Assembly: GCF_001880325.1 (NCBI RefSeq) | Contig: NZ_CP016312.1 | Coordinates: 248,001 to 312,000, forward strand | From: Thermus brockianus | Lineage (GTDB): Bacteria > Deinococcota > Deinococci > Deinococcales > Thermaceae | Length of the DNA: 64,000 nt | Reading direction: 5' to 3' | In this document: piece after piece, positions 2,779 to 30,560 of the stretch | Position numbering within the stretch: the stretch's first letter is position 1 | Layout: every line of letters begins with the position of its first letter | Notes under the pieces: generated by a model | Told to the model about the DNA's origin: nothing | Databases searched by the model: none | Seen by the model: the letters and a program-made list of their open reading frames with translations, nothing else | Translations under genes and position numbers: made by a program

Positions 2779-3066
2779 ATGCGGGGCCTAAGGCTCCTGG
2801 CTGCCCTAAGCCTCCTCCTGCCGGGGTTCGCCCTCTCCCCTTCCCCGGGCAAGGGGGAGGTGGGGCTTTTGGCCAAAGGCCCCATCCCCGTGCTGAAGGA
2901 AGACCGGGGCGGGGGCGTTGCACCGCCCCTTTGGGGGAACGTAAGCCGGCCCACCCCGCCCCGCGCACCCCGGCCTAGGGGCAACCCCTTCCCTGCCGTA
3001 AGGAAGGCCCTGCCCCAACCCGGCCTTTACTTGCTCTATAGGAAGCTCCAGTTGGAGGGCGGCTAG
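2779..3066 (+). CDS. Small predicted exported protein of unknown function
   Basis: 95 aa, starting 3 nt after infB. The N-terminus (MRGLRLLAALSLLLPGFALS) looks like a signal peptide; the rest is Pro/Gly/Arg-rich and ends LYLLYRKLQLEGG. I do not recognise a family. It sits between infB and secDF and is probably cotranscribed with infB. A 9-bp stem hairpin follows it at 3081-3110. The coding call rests mainly on the signal-like N-terminus and tight spacing. Confidence 0.55.
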   Translation: MRGLRLLAALSLLLPGFALSPSPGKGEVGLLAKGPIPVLKEDRGGGVAPPLWGNVSRPTPPRAPRPRGNPFPAVRKALPQPGLYLLYRKLQLEGG

Positions 3067-3080
3067 GCCCCTTCCCCGCC

Positions 3081-3110
3081 CTTGGCGCCTTACGGGAAGG
3101 GGGCGCCAAG
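3081..3110 (+). terminator. Hairpin between the infB operon and secDF
   Basis: A perfect 9-bp inverted repeat (CTTGGCGCC / GGCGCCAAG) with a 12-nt loop, 15 nt after the stop at 3066. No U-tract follows, so it may be a weak terminator, a processing site or part of the secDF leader. Confidence 0.4.
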
Positions 3111-3173
3111 GTTGGGGGTCCTGTGGGCCTTCCCCCGGCTAAAGGCGTGTGGCTTTATCCCGAAGGAGCGACC

Positions 3174-25018: not shown

Positions 25019-26173
25019 CTAAAGCCTCTGGATCACCGTGGCCGTGGCCTGGCCGTGGCCGATGCACATCACCTGGAGGCCAAGCTCCCCGTCCCGCCTC
25101 TCCAGCTCGTGGAGGAGCTTGGTCATGAGGATGGCCCCCGTGGCCCCCAAGGGGTGGCCCAGGGCGATGGCCCCCCCGTTGGGGTTCACCCTTTCGGGGT
25201 CCGGGTTGAACTCCTTTAGGAAGGCCAGGACCACGCTGGCGAAGGCCTCGTTCACCTCTATCACGTCCAGGTCGTGGATGGAAAGCCCCGCCCGCTCCAG
25301 GGCCTTCCGGGTGGCGGGGAGGATCTCCAGGAGTTGCAGGGTGGGGTCCCCCGCCACCACCACCCGGGCGAGGAAGCGGGCCCGGGGCCTTAGGCCCAAG
25401 GCCAGGGCCCTTTCCTTCTCCCCAAGGAGGATGGCCGCCGCCCCGTCGGAGATCTGGCTGCTGTTGCCGGCGGTGATGAGGCCGTCCTCGAGGAAGGCGG
25501 GCTTAAGGGCCAAGAGCTTCTCCAGGCTGGTGTCTTTGCGGATGCCCTCGTCCCGGTCTAGGAGAAAGGGTTTCCCCTCGGCGTCCAGGGCCTGGAGGGG
25601 GACCATCTGGCCCAAGAAGTACCCTTCCTCCGTGGCCCTTTGCGCCCGGCGGTGGGAAAGGAGGCTCCACGCATCCAGGTCCCGCCGGGAAAACCCGTAA
25701 AGCCGGGCGATGCGCTCGGCGCTTTCCCCTTGGTGGATGAGCGGGTACTTTTGGAAAAGGGCGGGGTTGAGCGTGTGGAACCCGCCCCCGATGTCCGAGA
25801 ACATGGGGGCCCGGGTCATGCTCTCCACCCCGCCGGCGATGGCGAAGTCCATGTCCCCAGCGGCGATGGCCTGGGCGGCGAAGTGCACCGCCTGCTGGCT
25901 TGAGCCGCACATGCGGTTGAGGGTCACCGCCGGCACCTCCTTGGGCAGGCGGGAAAGGAGGACCCCAAGCCGGCCCACGTTGGCCCCCTGCTCCCCCGCC
26001 TGGGTCACGCAGCCCGTGACCACGTCCTCCACCCGGGCGGGGTCCAGGCCGCTCCGGTCCAGAAGGGCGTCCAGGACCTTGGCGTAAAGGGCGTCGGGCC
26101 GCCACTCCCTAAGGGCCCCGTTCCGCTTGCCGATGGGGGTGCGCACCGCCTCCAAAATCACCGCCTCCCTCAT
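25019..26173 (-). CDS. Acetyl-CoA acyltransferase (thiolase)
   Basis: 384 aa. Nucleophilic Cys in [13 protein letters not shown] (about residue 88), His in [15 protein letters not shown], and the second Cys in [10 protein letters not shown]. The last motif reads CIGHGQ rather than the usual CxGGGQ. Cleaves 3-ketoacyl-CoA. ATGA overlap with the acyl-CoA dehydrogenase upstream. Confidence 0.93.
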
Positions 26174-27276
26174 GCCCGCCTCCTCAGGAGCTCCCTCAGG
26201 ACGATGAGCCTCTGGATCTCCGAGGTTCCCTCGTAGATCTGGAGGACCTTGGCGTCCCGGTAGAGCTTGGCCACCGGGTACTCCTCGCTGTAGCCGTTCC
26301 CACCGAACACCTGGACCGCCTCCACCACCCCCCGCTGGGCGGCGTCGGCGGCGAAGGCCTTGGCCACGGCCGCCTCCAGGGCATTTTCCTCCCCCATTTC
26401 CGCCCGTCGGGCCGCCTTTTCCACGAGGAGGCGGGCGGCCTCGAGGTCCATGTACATCTCCGCCAGCTTGAACCCCACCCCCTCGTGCTCCACCAAGGGC
26501 TTGCCAAAGGCCTCCCGCAACGCGGCGTAACCCAAGGCCTCGTCCAGAGCCCGCCAAAGGAGCCCCGCCGCCAAACCCGCCACCATGGGCCGGGAGCGGT
26601 TGAAGACCCGCATGGCCAGCCGAAAGCCTTCCCGGGCTATCAGGGCCTCCTCTGGTACATAGACCCCGTCCAGGTACACCTCCGCCGCCACCGAAGCCCT
26701 CTGCCCCAGTTTGGGAAGGGGCGGGCCCACCTCCACCCCCCTTTCCCGCTCCACCAGGAAGGCGGCGATCCCCTCCCGGCCCTCCCCCAGCTTGGCGAAG
26801 ACCACAAAAAAGGCGGCCTCCGGGGCGTGGCTAATCCAGGTCTTGCGCCCCCAAAGGCGGAACCCCCCCGCCACCCCCTCGGCCCGGGTACGGATGGCGG
26901 CCACATCCGACCCCGCATGGGGTTCGGTGAGGGCGTAGGCGCCCACCTCCTCCCGTAGCCGGGGGACAAAGGCCCGGGCGTAGGCGCTTCCCGATAGCAA
27001 GAGGACGTCCGCCACCAGGTTGTTCAAGAGAAGGGCGGCGGCAAGCCCCGTACAGGCGTAACCCAGCTCCTCCGCCACCCCCGCCAAGGCCAAGGGGCCA
27101 AGCCCCGCCCCGCCCAGCTCCTCCGGGGCCACGAGAAGGGGAAACCCCAAAGCCGCCGCCTCCCGAAAAAGGGGCCACGGAAAACGGGCTTCCCGGTCGT
27201 AGCGGACCGCCTCGGGCAGAAGCCTCTCCCGGGCAAAGCGCCGGGCGAGCTGGCGTACCGAGGTTTCCGGGCTCAA
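26170..27276 (-). CDS. Acyl-CoA dehydrogenase
   Basis: 368 aa flavoprotein: [12 protein letters not shown] (FAD/substrate region), [28 protein letters not shown] and the catalytic Glu in [12 protein letters not shown]. First step of beta-oxidation. TTG start, supported by AGGAGG 6 nt upstream and a promoter just beyond. Confidence 0.92.
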
Positions 27277-27293
27277 GGGAACCTCCTGCGCAA

Positions 27294-27330
27294 AGTTTAC
27301 CGGGTCAAAATGGCCCGGGCAAGGCTTGCC
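27294..27330 (-). promoter_or_regulatory. Promoter and operator-like repeat of the fatty-acid operon
   Basis: Minus strand TTGCCC (27322-27317), 17-bp spacer, TAAACT (27299-27294). The inverted repeat GGCAAG-G-CTTGCC (27318-27330) covers the -35 box and may bind a repressor. Confidence 0.6.
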
Positions 27331-27944
27331 TTAAAAACACCACAGGTATAAACACTCACCCTGAGCAAGCGAGGCTTCGTACGCCGCGAACCTAGCCCCA
27401 AAGAGGTCCTGGCCCATTCCCTCCGCCTGGCCCAAGCCGTGGCACCCCCCACCGGCAAACGGGGTAAACCCTGGCGCAAATCCTACCGCCTTGGGGAAGA
27501 GGTAAGGGGGCGCAAGGGCATAGCTCATCCTGGCCCTAGGACGACGGAATCAGAGGCGGAGGCGCTTATGGTCTGGGGGGAAACGTGGCGTCGGAATACG
27601 CACCCAACGCCTTGTTGGGAGCGGGGGTGTTGCAGCGGATTCGTCCTTCTGGGGGATATTTTGGCGGCAGCGGGTTCTGAGGGGGAGGGGCATCGGAGGC
27701 GGTGGCGGAGCTCATGCTTCATCCTCAAATGCGTGGGGGTGGGGAGGTGCGGAACGAGTCGCGGGCGTGGGGTCAGTGGGCAAAGGTGTACCGGTTGCGT
27801 GGGGGGTATATAGGGAAGCGCAATCCGCACACGGCCTTGATGCGGACCCTTTTGGAGCTCATTCCCCATGGGCTCAGGGGTCTCCTCTCCCTCCTGCCTC
27901 CACCGTCGGGGTACTAGGCGATTTTTTAGGCAAGCCCCAAAGCA
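27331..27944. other. Non-conserved stretch with decayed frames
   Basis: About 600 bases between the fad promoter and the IS4-type element. A plus-strand frame at about 27360-27536 reads LSKRGFVRREPSPKEVLAHSLRLAQA...WRKSYRLGEEV and looks like a basic-protein remnant with no start. A second frame (27540-27917) reads GGNVASEYAPNALLGAGVLQRI... with an internal TGA. Neither is recognised, and codon use differs from the core genes. Confidence 0.5.
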
Positions 27945-27963
27945 GGGCTTTACCCAAAACTCC
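27945..27963. repeat. Left terminal inverted repeat of the IS
   Basis: Pairs with 29236-29254 with 3 mismatches. The transposase stop codon (27950-27952) lies inside it. Confidence 0.7.
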
Positions 27964-29177
27964 TTCCTCGCCCTCCCTTAGCCTGCTTCAAGAGTTCTTG
28001 GGTGACTTCATAGTTGAGCAGGCGAACCAGGCCCCTCAGGAGCAGGTACGGACCATCCCTCTCGCTGGGCAGCCCCAGCTTGCCCCCGAGCTGCAAAAGA
28101 AACCCCTTGAACGGATCCCCCAACCGCTCAACTTCCCAAAGGAACACCGCCAGCCCCAGCAAAACCGCCACCACCTTCCGGATCCGGGCAAGCCCCCGCA
28201 CCTGGAAGGTCTCAAGCCCCAGCCCCGTCTTCAAAAGCCGGAAGAACCGCTCCACCTCCCACCGCCTGCGGTACGCCTCCACCACCTGCGCCGCCTCCTC
28301 CCTCCCCCTCACCGGCAAGCTGGTCAGTAGCCACCACTCCCCACGCCGCCCCAGGGCTGGCACCCGGCAGACCACCAGGTGGAGCCGCCTCCCCTCCACC
28401 TCCACCTCCCTCCATCCGAAGTGGAGCCGCACCCGCTGGTACCTGCCCCCTACCCTCAGCTCCACCTCCTCCCCACAGGGAAGGGCCAGGGAAGAAGCCA
28501 CCTTCGCCAGAGAACCCCCCTCCCCAAGCTTCCGGTCCCGGTAGACCCGCACCACGAACTCCTCCCCCAGGGCCAGCACCTGCCCAAACACCTTCCGGTC
28601 GTCAAACCCCCGGTCCGCCACATACACCAGCCTCCTGCCCACGCCCCCCAATCGCTCCCGGGCCGCCTCAATGGCTCCCTCCACCTCCTTGGGCAGGCTG
28701 GCAAACCCCCTCTCCCCGTAGGCCACCAGGTGGGCGTACCCCAGGGCCAGCCGCCCCGCGGGGTCCAACCCCAGGGCGGTGAGGAGCTCGTACCCGGGCC
28801 GCCTATCCTTCCCCACCCGGGCTATCCCCTCCAGGGCCCGGGCATAGGGCTTGGCCACCGGGCTCAGGTCCAGGAGGACCAGAACCTCCTCACCCTCCAG
28901 GGCAGTCGCGCTCTCCTGATAGACCCGGTCAAGGAGGGCTTCTGCCTCCACCCGTGGGTTGGACAGGAAGCGGTAAAGGGCTTTGGCCTGGTGGAAGCGG
29001 TTCTGGAGGGGAGAAGGGAGCGAGGCCACCATCTCGCTCACCCGGGCTGAGCCTGCGGCCAAGGCGCCCCGCACCACCTCTTCAAACCGTCGGTGGAGGC
29101 GCTTATCGGGGGAAAACGCTCGCAAAACGGCCCGTGAACTCCTGGAGCCTGGCCTCGGCCACCTTGAGCATGTCCAT
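27950..29177 (-). CDS. IS4-family DDE transposase with a +1 frameshift
   Basis: ATG 29177 begins MDMLKVAEARLQEFTGRFASVF and then meets TTC CCC CGA TAA; a +1 shift on the C5 run (29108-29112) continues PDKRLHRRFEEVV... to TAA 27950, 408 aa in all. DDE residues: Asp in LLDLSPVAKP, Asp in VADRGFDDRKVF, and the YRRRWEVERFFRLLKTGLGLE block with the catalytic Glu (Y-x2-R-x3-E-x6-K). The stop directly after the slip site fits programmed +1 frameshifting, but decay or a base-call error is also possible. Confidence 0.82.
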
Positions 29178-29235
29178 GGATCACCCCCGGTACCAGATAC
29201 GGGCTGCGCCCGCAAGGGGAGATTTACCACGAAAC

Positions 29236-29254
29236 GGAGATGTGGGTAAAGTCC
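29236..29254. repeat. Right terminal inverted repeat of the IS
   Basis: GGAGATGTGGGTAAAGTCC; complementary to the left end at 16 of 19 positions. It is 59 bases upstream of the transposase ATG. Confidence 0.7.
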
Positions 29255-29265
29255 TCCCAAAGAAC

Positions 29266-29294
29266 TTGACAAACAACCCACCGAGGCGTATTAT
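29266..29294 (+). promoter_or_regulatory. Strong consensus promoter just outside the IS
   Basis: TTGACA (29266-29271), 17-bp spacer, TATTAT (29289-29294). It reads into the methyltransferase remnant and the SnoaL-like gene, starting 12 bases beyond the IS end. Confidence 0.8.
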
Positions 29295-29312
29295 GCCTTC
29301 AAGAGGCAGACC

Positions 29313-29812
29313 GATGTGAAAGGCAACGATTCGCGGTCAACTCTGGGGGGCCCGTGCTCAGGACTGGGCTACCTACGCGGGGTGGGTGTGCTTGCCGCTG
29401 TTGGGCGCAGCTTTGGATGCCGCACGGGTAACCAGAGGCATACGCCTAGTCGATGCCGGGTGCGGCGCGGGACTGCTGTCGGTCCTGGCGAGCCTTCGCA
29501 GTACGCAGGTGAGCGCCCTCTAGGCCGCACCGCGGCTTGTGACGATCGTACGGCAGCGGTTGCCCGGGGCCGATGTCCAAGGAGGATCTGGAGGAGTTCC
29601 CCTTCGCCAACGCCTGCTTCAACACCGTCGTGGCTGTCAACAGCGTCTTTTACGCAGCGGATAGGGCGACCGCCATGCGCAGGCGCGTGCGTGTTACCCG
29701 GCGTAGCAGGCGGTCGTCACGGCCTGGAGGCCACTCGAGAAGTGCGAATTCTTACTGAACGGTGTGCCTAATTCACGGAAAAGGAGAAGCCAATGTTCGA
29801 TGCAATTGACGA
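29313..29812 (+). pseudogene. Decayed class I SAM-dependent methyltransferase
   Basis: Pieces of one protein lie in different frames: IRGQLWGARAQDWATYAGW and LVDAGCGAGLLSVLASL (SAM motif I), then TAG 29521 where an Asp is expected, AAPRLVTIVRQRLPGADV, a frame change near 29580, DLEEFPFANACFNTVVAVNSVFYAADRATAM, another change near 29710, and TAWRPLEKCEF. The last 100 or so residues of the family are missing. Codon use is unlike the core genes. Confidence 0.8.
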
Positions 29813-30212
29813 AGTAACACAGGTCGTTCACGCATTCGCGGAATGCTGGAACCGGCATGACATGAACGCATTTGCCGAGCTGTTTGCACCAGATGCGGAG
29901 TTCGTCAATGTGGTGGGCCTCTGGTGGAAAGGAAGAGATGAAATCAAGAAGGCCCATGAGTTCACGCACGCAACTATGTTCAAGAACAGCCGGTTGACTA
30001 TCGAGAACGTGTCGGTCCGGTTCCCTCAGGAGGACATCGCCATTGCCAGAGTGCGCTGGGTCCTCGAGGGTCACGTTTCCCCTGAGGGAGCGCCACTTCC
30101 CGCACGCAACGGAATCCTTCTCAACGTGCTTTGTCGCACCCCTGGAGGATGGGTGATCATCGATTCACAGAACACAGATATCGTCGAGGGCGCACTCTCT
30201 CGTCCTCAATGA
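29793..30212 (+). CDS. SnoaL/NTF2-fold protein (SgcJ/EcaC-like, DUF4440 type)
   Basis: 139 aa, intact: AFAECWNRHDMNAFAELFAPDAEFVNVVGLWWKG is the hallmark N-terminus of NTF2-like SgcJ/EcaC proteins; GEFTH-type helix and GGWVIIDSQNTDIV complete the cone fold. Such proteins bind small hydrophobic ligands or act as isomerases or hydrolases; no substrate can be assigned. AAAAGGAGAAG precedes the ATG. Codon use is less GC-skewed than neighbours, so it was probably acquired. An attC-like site follows 34 bases downstream. Confidence 0.85.
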   Translation: MFDAIDEVTQVVHAFAECWNRHDMNAFAELFAPDAEFVNVVGLWWKGRDEIKKAHEFTHATMFKNSRLTIENVSVRFPQEDIAIARVRWVLEGHVSPEGAPLPARNGILLNVLCRTPGGWVIIDSQNTDIVEGALSRPQ

Positions 30213-30245
30213 GGGGCAAGGCATCGCTTTGGATCGGGGCCTGGC

Positions 30246-30314
30246 TCCCAACCCCTCCATCGAGAGGGCAGTTTGCAAGACGCCGTAAGCTGCCGCTCAT
30301 GTCAAACGTTGGGC
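30246..30314 (+). other. Integron attC-like recombination site
   Basis: R'' TCCCAAC (30246-30252) pairs with R' GTTGGGC (30308-30314) at 6 of 7 positions. A 5/6-nt unpaired spacer follows, then L'' CAT(C)GAG (30258-30264) pairs with L' CTCATG (30296-30301) with one extrahelical base, then GGCAG (30267-30271) pairs with CTGCC (30290-30294), closed by a loop of about 18 nt. Size (69 bp), order and orientation after the SnoaL gene fit an attC cassette site. R'' departs from RYYYAAC only at its first base. Confidence 0.75.
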
Positions 30315-30341
30315 GGCTTGACTAACCGGTGGCCTGCGAGC

Positions 30342-30360
30342 CCCATCACTTCTACATCAG
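30342..30360 (+). repeat. Short tandem repeat ACATCAGGT
   Basis: ACATCAGGT is followed at once by ACATCAGG in the accessory stretch between the attC-like site and lepA. It lies in a short frame reading TSGTSGVELWIATHVEDVSFEGEG, unrecognised. Confidence 0.5.
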
Positions 30361-30415
30361 GTACATCAGGAGTTGAGCTTTGGATTGCTACACATGTTGA
30401 AGACGTTTCGTTTGA

Positions 30416-30488
30416 AGGGGAAGGGCGACGCCGGGAGGAGTTCGCGTTATAGGGGTGTTCAGAACGTTTTCGGGGACACCCTTCCCCT
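30416..30488. repeat. Nested inverted repeats
   Basis: Outer arms AGGGGAAGGG (30416-30425) and CCCTTCCCCT (30479-30488) are perfectly complementary; inner arms GGGTGT (30453-30458) and ACACCC (30476-30481) form a second hairpin. Possibly an IS end or a structured RNA; no gene is associated. Confidence 0.55.
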
Positions 30489-30499
30489 GAAGCCAGATC

Positions 30500-30525
30500 G
30501 GGCTTGCCTTGTACAAGGCAAGCCC
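30500..30525. promoter_or_regulatory. Perfect 26-bp palindrome upstream of lepA
   Basis: GGGCTTGCCTTGT followed by its exact complement, no loop. It ends 8 bases before a TTGACT (30534-30539) that could be the lepA -35 box, so it may be an operator. Confidence 0.65.
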
Positions 30526-30560
30526 AGCCTGGCTTGACTTTGCCCCGCCTACCCCGGACG

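Follow-up and report, generated by a model that had tools for sequence, protein, structure and literature searches.

A degenerate attC site behind an SgcJ/SnoaL-type gene in Thermus brockianus, very probably the stranded remnant of an integron cassette

The integron integrase (IntI) excises or inserts a cassette by binding the bottom strand of its attC site, in folded form, and cutting it at G^TT of the GTTGGGC box. Single attC sites and clusters of attC sites that occur without an integron integrase are classified by IntegronFinder as SALIN and CALIN, respectively (PMC12690207, PMC9024848), a SALIN being defined as a single attC lacking an integrase (PMC12690207). The locus described here, from a 64,000-nucleotide stretch of the T. 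brockianus chromosome (the window), fits the SALIN definition, with one attC and no IntI in the genome. It is a known class of element in an unusual host, Thermus. The features of the locus, with the evidence on which each was called, are as follows.

27322-30530, no strand assigned: accessory insert between an acyl-CoA dehydrogenase gene and lepA (flanks directly adjacent in Thermus G020)
27950-29281, minus strand: IS4-type transposase ORF of a Thermus insertion sequence (near-identical plasmid copies)
29316-29770, plus strand: class I SAM methyltransferase pseudogene (frameshifts and in-frame stops; cut near residue 177 of 290, at the start of the cassette)
29762-29792, plus strand: what is left of the 5' leader of the cassette, including its ribosome-binding site AAGGAG (comparison with the Thermoflexus locus L012)
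29793-30212, plus strand: SgcJ/EcaC-type NTF2-like (SnoaL/DUF4440) gene, 139 aa, intact ORF (TIGR02246, Pfam, GC3)
30246-30314, plus strand: attC site, degenerate, 69 nt (geometry and covariance model)
30246-30252, plus strand: R'' box TCCCAAC (attC register)
30253-30257, plus strand: R''-L'' spacer CCCTC, 5 nt (attC register)
from 30258, plus strand: L'', with an extrahelical C at 30261 (attC register)
to 30301, plus strand: end of L', followed at 30302-30307 by the L'-R' spacer TCAAAC, 6 nt (attC register)
30308-30314, plus strand: R' box GTTGGGC (attC register)
30315-30489, plus strand: foreign tail past R' (begins GGCTTG, as does the next cassette in L015)

The letters of the site are TCCCAAC-CCCTC-CAT(C)GAGAGGGCAG...CTGCCGCTCATG-TCAAAC-GTTGGGC. 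R' matches GTTRRRY perfectly, six of the seven positions of R'' fit RYYYAAC, and the two boxes pair at six of seven positions; the L arm is made up of 3 bp, one extrahelical C, and five pairs out of seven. This register is that of 40 true or candidate array attCs that we collected beside integrase genes. The preliminary description had listed these parts in order (R boxes, spacers of 5 and 6 nt, L boxes, and a single extrahelical base), and the sequence confirms the list. It had also placed the site 34 bases behind the gene and in the same orientation; the orientation stands, and the measured distance from the TGA of the SgcJ/SnoaL gene (30210-30212) is 33 nt. A strict geometric scan of both strands of the window returned this site as its one match, where an order-3 Markov model predicts 0.03, a figure that is somewhat optimistic because the site was already known when the thresholds were set. 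The structure is single-copy in the genome. A cruder scoring of R and L boxes was rejected as a discriminator, since it rated 3013-3117 equal to the site and did not set the site apart from random hairpins; 3013-3117 has no covariance-model support as an attC.

We built an attC covariance model (R1) from 24 array sites located beside IntI genes in a proteobacterial order and in Thermaceae, leaving out the site in the window and every attC that belongs to its gene family. With filters off, the top match of R1 in the window is 30246-30314 (19.5 bits, E = 0.019), well over the runner-up (12.4 bits); verified array attCs score 22-56 bits. At default filters R1 missed the site, both in the window and in the genome-wide search. 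Scaled to the 2.4-Mb genome, 19.5 bits corresponds to an E-value of approximately 0.7, or about one such chance match. Thus, the covariance check speaks for the site within the window, and genome-wide the score on its own is marginal, that is, suggestive but not decisive. The genome-wide search scored 150 of the approximately 1,660 candidates in the T. brockianus genome (G000), and the Thermus attC counts given here are lower bounds. Rfam, searched at gathering thresholds, gave no match.

Folded as DNA, the bottom strand exceeds every one of 200 shuffled versions in stability (z = -3.9), but the full attC fold is not the one of minimum energy and is predicted to be worse by approximately 7 kcal/mol. 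Real sites, that of the Thermoflexus relative L012 among them, likewise score poorly in attC-fold prediction; the pfold values for the L064 and L035 sites were set aside, as the automatic constraint was out of register there. For an 89-nt stretch of the top strand, DNA folding yielded z = -0.7, and the attC fold did not appear. Because the predicted attC fold lies this far above its competitor and the genome has no IntI, we conclude that the attC would be inactive in T. brockianus, with the gene still readable.

The SgcJ/EcaC-type protein scores 84.9 bits against TIGR02246 (cut-off 34) and belongs to Pfam DUF4440/SnoaL, and the GC3 of its gene is 0.62, compared with 0.89 for lepA. Seven relatives with 73-86 per cent protein identity were found in genome contigs of Nevskia, two Thermoflexus species, an Acidiferrobacteraceae bacterium, and other MAGs. 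An attC follows the stop codon by 24-34 nt in five of them (L010, 55 bits; L014, 38; L015, 31; L012, 25; L011, 16.8), and the gene lacks a downstream attC in the other two (L013 and L016; Rubrivivax with none, Comamonas with an upstream site only). Two of the relatives have an IntI on the contig that carries the gene. The array of the Nevskia MAG begins at an intact IntI and has the SnoaL gene as its fourth cassette; that of Thermoflexus tengchongensis has it in first place, next to an IntI interrupted by one in-frame stop. The suggestion that the Thermus gene is of cassette type is supported by homologues that occupy integron arrays with an attC at a like offset. The Thermus attC itself does not align with the attCs of the closest gene relatives. 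Compared with its nearest relatives, the protein has dN of approximately 0.09-0.11 and dS of approximately 1.1; taken from sequence comparison, these values show selection on the SgcJ/SnoaL family, most of which would predate its arrival in Thermus. The case for an integron origin, marginal by covariance score alone, is decided by the gene 33 nt upstream: the locus has a gene followed by an attC, both in the same orientation, and the gene family is known from integron arrays. The reading of the site as an attC of integron origin is thus supported by its geometry, by its covariance score within the window, and, above all, by the array homologues.

The absence of an integrase, observed earlier within the window, extends to the whole genome. 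The best tyrosine recombinase of T. brockianus scores 50.6 bits against TIGR02249 (cut-off 265), only distant ones are present, and no IntI over the cut-off was found in T. brockianus or any other Thermus genome searched. An IntI over the cut-off is present in seven of 111 Deinococcota genomes, six of these being Thermaceae and none belonging to the genus Thermus, and attC sites occur in four of the five Thermaceae genera searched. Integrons are thus present in close relatives of Thermus but, within our sample, not in Thermus. At ten loci (L024-L029, L035, and L038-L040) from non-Thermus genera, g4 and g2 of the Thermaceae and g7 of the same order, an IntI over the curated cut-off is accompanied by a nearby attC; the papers found do not describe these integrons. 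Another Thermus genome has a canonical solitary attC of 52 bits (G019:C13:17160-17231; L064 1501-1572), 9 nt past the stop codon of a gene for a BsuBI/PstI-type restriction endonuclease and with an IS4/5-type transposase downstream; that genome has no IntI over the cut-off. In a third Thermus, a decayed attC-like site (G009:C1:249762-249828; L065 1501-1567; 19.1 bits, E = 0.9) lies downstream of another SnoaL-type gene and may be a further cassette remnant. Our literature search, which covered only a minority of subscription papers, found no report of an attC in Thermus or Meiothermus. The 'super-integron' of T. parvatiensis (2017) was rejected as a precedent, being a prophage-like region with attL/attR rather than attC (PMC5529391).

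In Thermus G020, a match to 25827-27321 is followed, after 9 nt, by a match to 30531 onward, and 27322-30530 is therefore an insert. None of the other 26 Thermus genomes searched has the SgcJ/SnoaL gene, and we looked for 30246-30314 as ordinary lepA-upstream sequence in other Thermus and found that it is not. Plasmids of T. parvatiensis and T. aquaticus carry copies of 27950-29266, a part of the insert, with 99.6-100 per cent identity. A near-consensus sigma-70 promoter (TTGACA-17-TATTAT) is predicted at 29266-29294, on the edge of the IS element and pointing toward the pseudogene and the cassette gene. Relative to L012, the first approximately 18 nt of the cassette, TTGGGC included, are gone; the leader is recognizable from about 29762, and methyltransferase homology ends within approximately 10 nt of its start. 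There is no GTTRRRY between 29400 and 30308 and no TTRRRY boundary at the 5' end. The other half of the methyltransferase was not found downstream of the attC, where the sequence past R' gave no identification beyond its GGCTTG start.

Further repeats were observed in and around the insert. An 18-nt imperfect inverted repeat at 30416-30488 (AGGGGAAGGGCGACGCCG / CGGGGACACCCTTCCCCT) resembles the ends of an IS or MITE, and other Thermus give short matches to it only. Immediately before lepA, 30490-30535 is a palindrome with a perfect centre and 23-nt arms; AGGCAAGCCC, a related repeat, is found at 27927-27936. The two flank the insert and are possibly a footprint of its entry.

We consider it very probable that the site is the genuine but decayed attC of an SgcJ/SnoaL cassette, and that a piece of an integron array was acquired horizontally and is now a stranded SALIN with an intact gene. 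This piece would have come from another, probably hot-spring, bacterium, most likely by natural transformation, and would have settled between the acyl-CoA dehydrogenase gene and lepA, beside the IS4-type element. The 5' boundary of the cassette would then have been lost through rearrangement against the methyltransferase pseudogene. Because the genome has no IntI, the cassette would be stranded there, its gene intact and potentially expressed. The attC reading of the preliminary description is supported, with two qualifications: the covariance score is marginal by itself, and what remains is a truncated piece, not an intact mobile cassette.

An alternative with a similar starting point is that an integrase inserted a single cassette into the methyltransferase gene at a secondary (non-attI) site. 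The abrupt end of methyltransferase homology some 10 nt from the cassette leader is what such an event would leave, but a clean insertion predicts a TTRRRY at the 5' junction and the 3' half of the split gene past the attC. Both are missing, and the sequence past R' instead opens like another cassette, with GGCTTG. We reject the version in which the insertion split the methyltransferase and left its 3' half downstream, and regard secondary-site insertion in general as unlikely. The anatomy appears to fit an array fragment that was transferred and subsequently rearranged better than it fits the clean insertion of a single cassette.

The hairpin might also owe nothing to integrons. If the gene alone had been acquired horizontally, the hairpin would be a chance attC-like inverted repeat, a reading consistent with the marginal genome-wide score, the weak predicted attC pairing, and the two relatives that have no attC behind the gene. 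It would leave to coincidence both the exact register of R boxes, spacers, L arm, and extrahelical base, with its low Markov expectation in the window, and the location of the site at the very offset that the attC has in five relatives, and we judge it very unlikely. Two further readings of the hairpin, as an intrinsic terminator for the SnoaL gene and as a dispersed repeat of the REP or MITE kind, are extremely unlikely: the hairpin does lie just past the stop codon and could form a GC-rich stem, but no T-run follows it, no terminator was called in the region, and the genome has a single copy.

The decayed attC and its cassette thus look like a stranded trace of gene exchange between distant phyla. 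They document that material from integron cassettes occurs in Thermus, for which our search found no integron integrase, and tie to this genus a cassette family common to thermophilic Chloroflexota and Proteobacteria. It is possible, though not our expectation, that Thermus repeatedly imports single cassettes from the integrons of co-resident hot-spring bacteria, through natural competence and IS-assisted recombination and never owning an integrase; this tentative reading is prompted by three cases, namely, the T. brockianus locus, the 52-bit attC of G019, and the SnoaL-associated site of G009. If it is true, a genus that lies beyond the usual range of integrons draws on their cassette pools. 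Hot springs are a tractable setting for the question of how far cassettes travel without an integrase.

Compared with known systems, the locus is neither a complete integron, as IntI over the cut-off is absent, nor an intact mobile cassette, as the 5' boundary TTRRRY is gone. The integrons of other Thermaceae (genera g4 and g2) share with it the host's family and the presence of attC sites, but they are complete or partial integrons with IntI, and no copy of the SnoaL gene was found in them. Nevskia sp. HOG36 (JADGHB010000046.1) and Candidatus Thermoflexus tengchongensis (JAEVEX010000031.1) share the gene family, with 83-86 per cent protein identity, and, like Thermus, have an attC approximately 30 nt past the stop; in contrast to the Thermus locus, their genes lie in arrays that adjoin IntI, and their attCs cannot be aligned with its own. 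The locus is most like SALIN and CALIN elements, having a single attC behind a cassette-type gene, in the correct orientation and in a genome without IntI, and it differs from them in its Thermus host, its weak attC, and the lost 5' boundary of its cassette.
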